From NCBI GenBank assembly GCA_947452725.1, contig CANGEG010000005.1, forward strand, positions 1 to 35,889: a stretch of DNA of 35,889 nucleotides, written 5' to 3'. Origin of the DNA: Comamonadaceae bacterium (GTDB lineage Bacteria > Pseudomonadota > Gammaproteobacteria > Burkholderiales > Burkholderiaceae_C). The notes under the pieces were generated by a model. That model was not told the DNA's origin. It worked only from the letters and a program-made list of their open reading frames with translations, and ran no database searches. The translations under genes were made by a program, and so were the position numbers. Positions within the stretch are counted from its first letter, which is position 1. Each line of letters begins with the position of its first letter. Positions 122 to 8,100 of the stretch are shown piece by piece.

Positions 122-1054
122 TCATGCGTACTCGGTCAGTGTCTTCTTCATCTTCTTCATGGCCGCAACTTCGATCTGGCGAATGCGCTCGGCGCTCACG
201 CCATAGACCGCCGCCAAGTCGTGCAGCGTCATGCCGCCCGAGCCGTTGTCGTTCACTTTGAGCCAACGCTCTTCCACGATGTGGCGGCTGCGGTCGTCCA
301 AGGCGGCCAAGGCCGTGGCAATGCCATCGCTCGAGAGCAGATCGCGCTCATGCGCCTCGATCATGGCGGTCGGCTCATGGTTCATATCAGCCAAGTAGGC
401 GATTGGCCCAAAGGCCTGTTCGCCGTCATCGGACGGTGCGGGATCGAGCAACACGTCACCGCCGGACATGCGTGTTTCCATCTCCATGACTTCTTCTCGC
501 TTGACGTTCAAGTCGCGCGCCATCACATCAATTTGATCCACGGTCAACGTGTCCCGGTGGGTGTTGAGTCCAGCATCGGCCTTGAAGCCTTGTTTCATCG
601 AGCGCAAGTTGAAAAAAAGTTTGCGCTGTGCCTTGGTGGTGGCCACTTTGACCATGCGCCAATTTTTCAGAATGTACTCGTGAATCTCCGCTTTAATCCA
701 GTGCAGCGCGTAGCTGACCAAGCGCACGCCTTGGTCCGGATCAAAGCGTTTGACCGCTTTCATCAGGCCCACGTTGCCTTCTTGGATCAGATCGCCATGC
801 GGCAAACCGTAGCCTAGGTACTGGCGCGAAACTGAGACCACCAAACGCAGATGCGACAGGACCAATTTGCCTGCGGATTCGAGGTCGCCTTCGTTTTTCA
901 GTTTGCGTGCAAAAGCCTGCTCTTGCTCCAGCGTCAGCATGGGCATGCGGTTGACCGCAGAGATGTAGGCGTCCAAATGCCCCAGCGACGGCACGACCGC
1001 CCAAGGATTGGTCAAAGACACAGCAGAGGCGGGGGAACCAGTTTGAATGTTCAT
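122..1054 (-). CDS. rpoH: RNA polymerase heat-shock sigma factor RpoH (sigma-32)
   Basis: This is the alternative sigma factor that directs RNA polymerase to chaperone and protease promoters after heat or envelope-protein stress. The 310-residue product has the normal length for the family. Region 2 is recognisable around residues 65-135 (GDLIQEGNVGLMKAVKRFDP). The RpoH-specific box QRKLFFNLR sits at about 143-151, and the C-terminus has a region 4 helix-turn-helix (VSAERIRQIE). That box separates RpoH from other group 2/3 sigma factors. The ATG at 1054 is preceded by AAAGGAGT at 1061-1068, a near-perfect ribosome-binding site, which fixes the start. The gene is monocistronic here. A perfect CIRCE element upstream adds predicted HrcA repression. 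Confidence 0.97.
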   Translation of the reverse strand: MNIQTGSPASAVSLTNPWAVVPSLGHLDAYISAVNRMPMLTLEQEQAFARKLKNEGDLESAGKLVLSHLRLVVSVSRQYLGYGLPHGDLIQEGNVGLMKAVKRFDPDQGVRLVSYALHWIKAEIHEYILKNWRMVKVATTKAQRKLFFNLRSMKQGFKADAGLNTHRDTLTVDQIDVMARDLNVKREEVMEMETRMSGGDVLLDPAPSDDGEQAFGPIAYLADMNHEPTAMIEAHERDLLSSDGIATALAALDDRSRHIVEERWLKVNDNGSGGMTLHDLAAVYGVSAERIRQIEVAAMKKMKKTLTEYA

Positions 1055-1081
1055 ACCAGAACTCCTTTCAGAATTGAGGTT

Positions 1082-1111
1082 ATTTTAGCACTCGTGCACA
1101 GAGAGTGCTAA
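1082..1111 (-). promoter_or_regulatory. Predicted rpoH promoter embedded in CIRCE
   Basis: On the minus strand, TTAGCA (complement of 1106-1111) and TAAAAT (complement of 1082-1087) are spaced 18 bases apart, resembling a housekeeping -35/-10 pair. Both hexamers overlap the CIRCE arms, so a bound repressor would block polymerase directly. The -35 box is only a partial match, so this is a moderate-confidence prediction. Confidence 0.5.
1085..1111. promoter_or_regulatory. CIRCE operator (HrcA-binding inverted repeat)
   Basis: TTAGCACTC at 1085-1093 and GAGTGCTAA at 1103-1111 are separated by exactly nine bases. This is the canonical CIRCE repeat with no mismatch. It lies 31 bases upstream of the rpoH ATG and overlaps the predicted promoter. 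HrcA binding here would repress rpoH transcription until HrcA inactivates on heat shock. The match is seen directly; HrcA binding is inferred from family knowledge. Confidence 0.96.
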
Positions 1112-1234
1112 TGATCAGCATCAATAGACCTCACAATGTGTGACGAGATGCAACCGGGCCAATCAGACTTGGAGATGGCCCCCTTATGTCCTATGGTTTG
1201 TCCTAATGGGACCAGGCGGGCGTTTGCGCATTTA

Positions 1235-1256
1235 GACAATACACTAATGTATTGTC
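1235..1256. promoter_or_regulatory. Palindromic operator, copy A (TetR-type)
   Basis: GACAATACA at 1235-1243 and TGTATTGTC at 1248-1256 form perfect 9-base arms around CTAA, ending 29 bases before the dehalogenase ATG. A weak promoter (TTGCGC at 1224, 18-base spacer, TGTATT at 1248) would overlap it. Related palindromes occur at 8161-8180 and 17955-17974, with right half-sites AATGTATTGT, AGTGTATTGT and AGTGTACTGT. Size and symmetry fit a TetR-family operator. The cognate regulator is not identified. Confidence 0.7.
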
Positions 1257-1285
1257 CGAAGTTCATTTTGTTTGGCAGGCCCCGC

Positions 1286-2212
1286 ATGAGATCTTTACCG
1301 CGTATTGACCAAGTTCTGAGAACCCCGCCAGAATGTTTTGAGGGGTTAAGAGATTTTCCTTATTTGCCGCACTACGCCGAAATCGGCGGGCTGCGTGTGG
1401 CCTATATCGACGAAGGCCCGGCCGATGGCCCTAAGGTCTTGTTGATGCACGGTGAGCCGACCTGGTCTTACCTTTACCGCAAGATGATTCCTGTCCTAGT
1501 GCAAGCTGGTTGCCGGGTGATTGCCCCCGATTTGGTGGGTTTTGGCCAATCCGACAAACCCACCCGGCGCCAGGACTACACCTATGCCAACCACGTGGCC
1601 TGGATGTCGGCATTGATCGAGCAACAGGACTGGCAAGGGATGACTTTCTTTGGCCAGGACTGGGGCTCCTTGGTGGGCTTGCGCGTGGTGGCGGGCATGC
1701 CGCAGCGGTTTGACCGAATCGTACTGGGCAACGCCGCTTTACCCACGGGTCAAGAAATCTTGCCCCAAGCCTTTCGCATTTGGCGTGCATTTGCCATGTA
1801 CAGCCCTTGGTTTCCGATTGGCCGCATTGTCAAAGCCGGTTGCCGCATGGGCTTGACGGACCTTGAGGTGGCTGCCTACGATGCACCATTTCCTACGCGT
1901 GCTTACCGCGTCGGCGCACGGGTTTTTCCCACCCTCGTGCCCGATGGGCCCAACCATCCTGAGGGTATAGCCAACGCGCGTGCCTGGGATGTCTTCAAAC
2001 AATGGCACAAACCGCTGCTGACTTTGTTCAGCAACCGCGATCCGATTACCCGCGGCGGCTACAAAATTTGGCAAACCATGGTGCCCGGCGCACAGGGCCA
2101 GCCGCATGCAAATATTCGCGGAGCAGGCCATTTTTTGCAAGAAGACAGCGGCGTGGAGGTGGCCCAGGCCATGGCGAAATTCATCCACAACACACCGGTC
2201 GTCAGTGCCTGA
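1286..2212 (+). CDS. Haloalkane dehalogenase-like alpha/beta hydrolase
   Basis: The protein is predicted to cleave a carbon-halogen bond hydrolytically in the cytoplasm. It has the haloalkane dehalogenase (DhlA-like) layout: HGEPTW oxyanion motif at residues 55-60, nucleophile Asp125 in GQDWGS, acid Asp252 in SNRDP and His282 in GAGHF. Trp126 directly follows the nucleophile, as in true dehalogenases, and Trp175 in the cap is a candidate second halide-binding Trp. An Asp rather than Ser nucleophile excludes an ordinary esterase, but epoxide hydrolases also use Asp. The ATG at 1286 is chosen because family homology begins at residue 1 there; the frame is open 150 bases further upstream. The product is 308 residues, matching the family. 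The MBL-fold gene follows after nine bases, and a palindromic operator lies 29 bases upstream. Substrate unknown. Confidence 0.85.
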   Translation: MRSLPRIDQVLRTPPECFEGLRDFPYLPHYAEIGGLRVAYIDEGPADGPKVLLMHGEPTWSYLYRKMIPVLVQAGCRVIAPDLVGFGQSDKPTRRQDYTYANHVAWMSALIEQQDWQGMTFFGQDWGSLVGLRVVAGMPQRFDRIVLGNAALPTGQEILPQAFRIWRAFAMYSPWFPIGRIVKAGCRMGLTDLEVAAYDAPFPTRAYRVGARVFPTLVPDGPNHPEGIANARAWDVFKQWHKPLLTLFSNRDPITRGGYKIWQTMVPGAQGQPHANIRGAGHFLQEDSGVEVAQAMAKFIHNTPVVSA

Positions 2213-6492: not shown

Positions 6493-6772
6493 GATGTTCT
6501 TTGGCGGTATCTGCCGCATCGGCCAAAGGCTTCCAATGCAACAAGCCAAATAACAGCGTCAACAATATGCTGAGTGCGACCGGCCCTTTGTATGAACGCA
6601 CATGCTTGAATACAAACGCCAGCTCCAAGGCATGAATAAATACCAAAATCAAAGCTGCTCGCGTTGGGTCAAAAGGCCAGTCTACAGCCATGGGCCACAA
6701 AGCGTGGGCAAGGCCAAGACAGAGCAGCGTCAAGCAGGCACATTTGGAAATCAAAACAACAACAGGGTTCAT
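6485..6772 (-). CDS. Small integral membrane protein (DUF1145-like)
   Basis: A 95-residue protein with three hydrophobic segments at about residues 5-25, 36-56 and 63-80 and a charged C-terminus. The middle part (LILVFIHALELAF) resembles the DUF1145/YhhL type of small inner-membrane protein; this assignment is by eye and tentative. Its ATG overlaps the stop of the upstream DsbA-like gene as ATGA, and its stop overlaps the sulfatase start, so it is tightly co-translated. A membrane-partner role for the anchored sulfatase would be inference. Confidence 0.7.
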   Translation of the reverse strand: MNPVVVLISKCACLTLLCLGLAHALWPMAVDWPFDPTRAALILVFIHALELAFVFKHVRSYKGPVALSILLTLLFGLLHWKPLADAADTAKEHHD

Positions 6773-8100
6773 GAGAATCTTTTATTTTCTTTGTCAAATG
6801 CAGGAGCAGCTGGCAATGAGGTACTTTGGTGCAAGGCCATATCTACCGCCGCCATGCGGTCTTGTCCCCACACGGCAGTGTCGCCCACCTTAAAACTGGG
6901 CACCCCCCACAGACCCAATCCCAGCATCTCCACGCGGCTGGCTTCGGCGCTTATACGCCAGGCGTCGTCTTGCAATGCGGCGCAGACCTCAGGCCAAGCC
7001 AGCCCGGCCCGCGTGGTGATATGGCGCAGGCCTTTGTCGCTGCCAGCGTTGAGGCCTTCGGCCCACACCCCTTGCATGAAGGACAGTACGTAGGCCTGGC
7101 CCACGCCTCGGGCTTCGGCCAAAGGCATCAACGCCAAGCCACGCTCCGTCGGTTTGCCTACAGGGTCGCACACACGCCCAAACGGCACGTTTAAACGGCG
7201 TGCTTCGCGAGCCGCATCAAGGCTGATGTACATGCGTTTGCTTTTCGGCACGGCCAGTCCGCGCATGACCATGGGCAATACATAACGTAACCGTACCTGA
7301 ATGTTAGTGCCCTTTGTTAGAGCAAACAGGCGGTGCGCAGCAATGGCAGAGTAAGGACTGCGGAAGGAAAAATAAAAATCAACGCTGCTTCCCGGTGCCG
7401 CTTGCTCCCAATGGGTTGCTGCCTCGGGCTCGAACATAAAGCCCTTGGTGTCAGCACGCGCAGCGCCCAAGGCTTGCAAGCGTTCCTCCAAATGGTGCAA
7501 CCGGTCTAGGCCCCAGTACCACTCACCTGCGTAGTACAGCATGCTGCCGCTGTAATGCCCCAAGCGTCGGCGCAAAGCGTCTGACATGGCCAAGTGCGTT
7601 TGGACCTGCACTGGGCTGGCCGAGGGAAGAATTTGTGATGATGAGCTGGCAGAACTCCAAAGCGCTTGCACTAACTCGCTGCTGTGATGCTCAAATTGCT
7701 GTGACTCGATCAGGTGCACGAGTTGGGCGCTGTTTTTCTCAATTTCGAGTGATGTTGGTTGCTGACCTGTGTCCTCGAAGTTCAAGCCCTGTTGTTGCGC
7801 CAACCAGGCCGCGTCTCTACGACTGTAGGCGATGAGGCGTTCACGGTCTGGCGCAGCATCGGCTGCCGGTGGGCTAACAAGGTGAGACCGCACATCAATG
7901 TCGTAACGCTGGCGCAGTTGCGGCAGACATTGCACCATTAGGGCCGAATAGGGGTCGTCTACTTGGTGAAAATAATGCACCTGATGTGGCTCAGCGCGTT
8001 GGCAGCGCTGGCGTTCAGCGCTGCGACGTTGCCCAGCCAAACGCTGAGGCGACAACCACCAGGCGGAGATGGCGGGCATGAGCAAGCTCTTGAGGTTCAT
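6769..8100 (-). CDS. Tandem DsbA-like / HCCA isomerase-like (kappa GST fold) protein
   Basis: A 443-residue protein that appears to contain two copies of the DsbA-like thioredoxin fold used by 2-hydroxychromene-2-carboxylate isomerases and kappa glutathione transferases, which are normally about 200 residues. Copy 1 starts near residue 40 (VHYFHQVDDPYSALM). Copy 2 starts near 239 (VDFYFSFRSPYSAIAAHRL) and ends with the cis-proline segment WGVPSF at 398-403. Copy 2 has the SPYS motif of the isomerase group and no CxxC, so a disulfide oxidoreductase role is unlikely. Copy 1 is more divergent. A glutathione-dependent isomerase or transferase role is inferred. First gene of the four-gene minus operon; palindrome B lies 61 bases upstream. 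No clear ribosome-binding site is seen. Confidence 0.8.
   Translation of the reverse strand: MNLKSLLMPAISAWWLSPQRLAGQRRSAERQRCQRAEPHQVHYFHQVDDPYSALMVQCLPQLRQRYDIDVRSHLVSPPAADAAPDRERLIAYSRRDAAWLAQQQGLNFEDTGQQPTSLEIEKNSAQLVHLIESQQFEHHSSELVQALWSSASSSSQILPSASPVQVQTHLAMSDALRRRLGHYSGSMLYYAGEWYWGLDRLHHLEERLQALGAARADTKGFMFEPEAATHWEQAAPGSSVDFYFSFRSPYSAIAAHRLFALTKGTNIQVRLRYVLPMVMRGLAVPKSKRMYISLDAAREARRLNVPFGRVCDPVGKPTERGLALMPLAEARGVGQAYVLSFMQGVWAEGLNAGSDKGLRHITTRAGLAWPEVCAALQDDAWRISAEASRVEMLGLGLWGVPSFKVGDTAVWGQDRMAAVDMALHQSTSLPAAPAFDKENKRFS

Follow-up and report, generated by a model that had tools for sequence, protein, structure and literature searches.

A CIRCE operator at position −51 from the start codon of rpoH, the gene of the heat-shock sigma factor sigma32, was published in 2004 for Geobacter sulfurreducens (PMC545781, Table 8). 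For other species, it has been reviewed that GroE enhances the binding of the HrcA repressor, that HrcA binds over core promoters, and that its release involves titration of GroEL or direct inactivation by heat (PMC6032397). A CIRCE at rpoH is already known; what we add here is the breadth of this arrangement, its link with hrcA, and the fusion of the operator with the −10 element of the promoter. For some beta-proteobacteria, rpoH reportedly figures among the HrcA targets in RegPrecise, and a comparative paper from 2003, said to cover by its title both regulons in beta-proteobacteria, may already list rpoH among the HrcA targets. Our literature search, which covered sources other than this 2003 paper, retrieved no direct experiment on HrcA or CIRCE at rpoH in beta-proteobacteria.

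We analysed a stretch of 35,889 nucleotides from a freshwater Comamonadaceae bacterium, hereafter the window, in which the region around the rpoH start has the following features:

122..1054, minus strand: rpoH, heat-shock sigma factor sigma32, 310 aa (TIGR02392, NF005143, PF04542, PF04545)
1062..1066, minus strand: probable Shine-Dalgarno sequence AGGAG, read directly
1082..1091, minus strand: predicted extended −10 GTGCTAAAAT (TG-C-TAAAAT on the minus strand, of which the CIRCE right arm supplies TGCTAA and the 3-base flank AAT)
1085..1111, no strand assigned: CIRCE operator TTAGCACTC-N9-GAGTGCTAA, a perfect inverted repeat with 0 mismatches
1106..1111, minus strand: −35-like hexamer TTAGCA, within one CIRCE arm, 4/6 to TTGACA
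1136–2212, plus strand: divergent haloalkane-dehalogenase-like alpha/beta hydrolase (NF002043, 418 bits)

The product of complement(122..1054) scores 385.3 bits against TIGR02392, the RpoH equivalog model (cut-off 323.1), and 399 bits against NF005143, and carries sigma70 regions 2 and 4 (PF04542 and PF04545). The motif scan places the full operator, TTAGCACTC-GTGCACAGA-GAGTGCTAA, at exactly 1085–1111, that is 31–57 nt upstream of the rpoH start codon, with its near edge 31 bp away. No second site within three mismatches was found anywhere in the 35.9-kb window, where dinucleotide shuffles give a mean expectation of 0.01. A promoter scan run without reference to CIRCE predicted, on the minus strand, TTAGCA (1111–1106), an 18-nt spacer, and TAAAAT (1087–1082) with the TG of an extended −10. 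CIRCE takes in the whole −35-like hexamer, the spacer, and the first three bases of the −10, the last three (1084–1082) lying just outside. Both the perfect CIRCE and its overlap with the two predicted rpoH promoter hexamers, as claimed by the first-pass annotation, are thus borne out, the −35-like hexamer being fully contained. This −10/−35 call is a match to consensus; by expectation, 3 kb would hold 1.1 promoter-like sites, and the scan returned three. Transcription of rpoH is predicted to start near 1076, with a leader of about 22 nt.

The source assembly comprises 2.94 Mb in 276 contigs and is 81% complete. Among its named relatives, the rpoH search placed closest some MAGs with the labels Comamonadaceae, Burkholderiales, and Limnohabitans. 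The assembly contains an hrcA gene (G000:C105:226-1203; TIGR00331, 314 bits, cut-off 197), whose absence the first-pass annotation had regarded as fatal to its reading. The neighbours of hrcA are presumably nadK-like and recN-like genes, which we named by recognising their translations. The site at 1085–1111 is therefore a mismatch-free inverted repeat with hrcA in the same genome, placed upstream of a heat-shock gene and over its predicted promoter, as expected for a CIRCE. Only two perfect CIRCEs are present in the assembly, upstream of rpoH and of groES. The latter comes after a sigma32-like promoter, CTTGAAA-N13-CCTTAT or close variants. On another contig, both grpE and dnaK have a sigma32-like box upstream. 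Neither has a CIRCE, the best match having eight mismatches. The general statement that HrcA and CIRCE control groESL and dnaK consequently holds in this genome for groES and fails for dnaK. The region upstream of rpoH itself in this genome showed no sigma32-like box. Similarly, no CIRCE precedes hrcA in the assembly; the best upstream site has nine mismatches, and we rejected autoregulation of hrcA in this genome. A third CIRCE-like site, with three mismatches, lies upstream of a transporter substrate-binding protein gene (G000:C10:12448). It looks like a chance match; similar three-mismatch sites also occur in genomes devoid of hrcA.

To scan relatives for CIRCE upstream of rpoH, a check that the first-pass annotation had proposed, we took the best RpoH homologue of each genome and examined up to 400–450 nt of the DNA that precedes it. 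Within the genus, the operator is present in all 28 genomes with an intact rpoH start, 27 times as a perfect match and once with one mismatch. It is also found, always with at most two mismatches, at every one of the 78 rpoH loci from named Burkholderiales whose upstream DNA was readable, including those of Acidovorax, Variovorax, Comamonas, Hydrogenophaga, Rubrivivax, Paraburkholderia, Cupriavidus, Pandoraea, and Herbaspirillum. Among the 28 genomes of the order sample (one per family), 25 carry a site with at most two mismatches, two a degraded site with four mismatches, and one neither site nor hrcA. The class sample has the site in 16 of 25 genomes, and seven of the nine genomes without it also lack hrcA. 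Loci scored as site-less show six to nine mismatches and are well separated from the site-bearing ones. When the order and class samples were combined with the same-class genomes of the phylum sample (59 genomes in all), 41 had both the rpoH CIRCE and hrcA, two the site only, four hrcA only, and 12 neither (Fisher p = 1.3e-7; 43/2/2/12 and p = 7e-9 if the two four-mismatch sites are counted as present); these tests take genomes as independent, which they are not, although nearly every class- or order-level genome comes from a different family. The operator is kept at rpoH orthologues and tracks hrcA, as expected of a member of the HrcA regulon.

Two genomes carry an rpoH CIRCE and no detected hrcA (G075:C50:36527-36553 and G064:C77:7290-7316, in assemblies 97% and 62% complete, respectively); hrcA may have escaped assembly there, or the operator may have outlived its repressor. 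G072 and G085 have hrcA and no recognisable CIRCE at rpoH. G085 instead has a CIRCE with one mismatch some 60 nt in front of hrcA (G085:C4:148994-149020), which suggests that this gene may be autoregulated there. Outside the class, where the best RpoH locus of a genome was the one considered, a site with at most three mismatches was found at only two of 22 loci, both in one genus, although 17 of 23 of these outside genomes encode hrcA; the wiring thus belongs mainly to this class. These two sites (G093:C1:242557-242583 and G101:C11:118457-118483), which belong to another class of the same phylum, are one-mismatch CIRCEs upstream of an rpoH homologue and perhaps represent an independent gain. 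As the site is common to nearly all hrcA-bearing relatives, the predicted connection between HrcA and rpoH is old and standard, and not peculiar to the source genome. Calling it a noteworthy wiring was an overstatement, as it is the norm among the sampled hrcA-bearing members of the class and had been published for G. sulfurreducens.

Between genomes, the CIRCE arms are 94–97% identical, whereas the 9-nt spacer (32–33%) and the flank (26–27%) are close to random, indicating that selection acts on the arms. At the rpoH sites of the order and class samples, the right arm is followed by N-A-T, with A at +2 in 80% of cases. T at +3 is found at 40 of 41 of these sites versus three of 29 groES sites from the same order (p = 8e-15). 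Likewise, T25 of the right arm is changed at none of the 41 rpoH sites versus six of the 29 groES sites (p = 0.004). Such a pattern would arise if GTGCTAANAT served rpoH as its extended −10. Among the left-arm changes at rpoH, the most frequent gives TTGGCA (A3 to G), which is nearer than TTAGCA to the −35 consensus TTGACA; it occurs at 12/41 rpoH versus 2/29 groES sites (p = 0.03, uncorrected for relatedness). We predict that the right arm GAGTGCTAA and its N-A-T flank form the extended −10 of rpoH, the left arm lying at the −35. Operator and putative sigma70-type promoter would then be nearly one object. By contrast, the conserved feature at groES in this order is a sigma32-like box immediately upstream of CIRCE. 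These patterns indicate that one operator has been set into two promoter types.

The conservation of the operator, its co-occurrence with hrcA, and its overlap with the promoter strengthen the earlier claim that rpoH is under HrcA, and make repression a well-supported prediction. We assign a probability of about 90% to the reading that 1085–1111 is the HrcA operator of rpoH, within a GroEL-gated feed-forward loop of HrcA and sigma32. Free GroEL would keep HrcA active, and HrcA would bind CIRCE from the −35-like hexamer to the −10 of the sigma70-type promoter, thereby excluding RNA polymerase. Occupation of GroEL by unfolded protein, or direct inactivation of HrcA by heat, would derepress rpoH and groESL together, and newly made sigma32 would act on the sigma32 promoters of groESL, grpE, and dnaK. 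HrcA would thus repress both rpoH and groESL, sigma32 would activate groESL, and GroEL would restore HrcA by negative feedback. The first-pass annotation had proposed two heat-shock circuits in series. The link between them is indeed predicted, but this description is incomplete: a CIRCE also adjoins the sigma32 promoter of groES, so that the two circuits are predicted to form a coherent feed-forward loop and not a simple series. Two textbook heat-shock circuits would in this way join in one network across a very large clade, with one GroEL-gated repressor setting the chaperonin and also the sigma factor in charge of the other chaperones. Transcriptional heat induction of rpoH is a prediction for Burkholderiales, unlike the E. 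coli model.

HrcA might instead set only the basal level of rpoH expression, the operator being real but minor and control being mainly post-transcriptional (mRNA thermometer, chaperone-directed turnover) or exerted by other promoters. In E. coli, sigma32 is controlled by mRNA structure. It is also subject to chaperone sequestration and proteolysis (PMC6032397). In the source genome, rpoH may have further promoters that bypass HrcA. Five Rubrivivax/Aquincola-type loci (L105, L111, L112, L118, and L124) harbor GGAAC(T/C) boxes, like the −35 of sigmaE promoters, just after the CIRCE −10 and before rpoH; these genomes possibly have a second, stress-responsive rpoH promoter. We nevertheless consider a minor role less likely than not. 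Folding of the first 247 nt of the predicted rpoH mRNA is no more stable than that of shuffled sequences (z = +0.92), and the rpoH start has no match in Rfam, which led us to reject an RNA thermometer or Rfam element there. The predicted leader is short, and a near-invariant operator suggests a strong effect. These points leave room for control of sigma32 protein stability.

As proposed for CIRCE in 5′ untranslated regions elsewhere, the perfect inverted repeat, so close to rpoH, could act as an RNA hairpin affecting the stability of the mRNA. This is very improbable, because the predicted start lies downstream of CIRCE, so that the operator would not be transcribed from this promoter, of which the right arm and the invariant N-A-T flank form the putative −10.

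The operator is symmetric and sits in a divergent intergenic region, and could in principle serve the hydrolase gene, rpoH being merely adjacent. Judging from its HMM match and from a later ATG, the hydrolase probably starts near 1286 (about 1286–2212, plus strand). However, among loci with enough upstream DNA, a homologue of this gene lies beside rpoH at one of 25 genus loci (that of the window), one of 70 named loci (that of the closest relative, L063), and none of 25 order loci, and all of them keep CIRCE regardless. Moreover, the conserved −10 flank faces rpoH. We rejected the hydrolase as the target, since it almost never adjoins rpoH in relatives, and give this assignment even less credit than the hairpin. 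The hydrolase gene adjoins rpoH in almost no lineage but that of the source genome. Elsewhere, the window contains two sulfatase-family genes (PF00884; 4639–6549 and 11370–13046, both minus strand) and, between them, a gene for a DSBA-domain protein (6769–8100, minus strand), a patch possibly involved in organosulfur or sulfate-ester catabolism.

Finally, a chance match or a vestige is in practice excluded by the conservation of the operator, which is kept across dozens of families while its spacer drifts and of which only about 9e-6 copies within two mismatches are expected per upstream region (uniform composition), in addition to the low expectation in the window.

In E. coli, hrcA is absent and sigma32 is controlled at the levels of translation and protein stability. 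We tentatively raise the idea, at slightly less than even odds, that the beta/gamma clade ancestrally controlled sigma32 by HrcA repression of rpoH, at an operator merged with the −10, and that the E. coli-type mode was derived from this state after loss of hrcA together with the rpoH operator. As in G. sulfurreducens, the operator described here is a perfect match and has the same target gene, at −51 there and 31–57 nt upstream here. The two cases belong to different classes and, whereas only one species listed in PMC545781 had the site, it is near-universal in the hrcA-bearing members of the class studied here. In Geobacter, hrcA-grpE-dnaKJ also has a CIRCE, unlike dnaK of the source genome. 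The control of groESL in Bacillus subtilis and many Proteobacteria relies on the same repressor family and operator, and groES here also has a perfect CIRCE. At rpoH, however, what HrcA would repress is the gene of a sigma factor, and the operator shares bases with a predicted sigma70-type −10, whereas the groES CIRCE of this order follows a sigma32 promoter.
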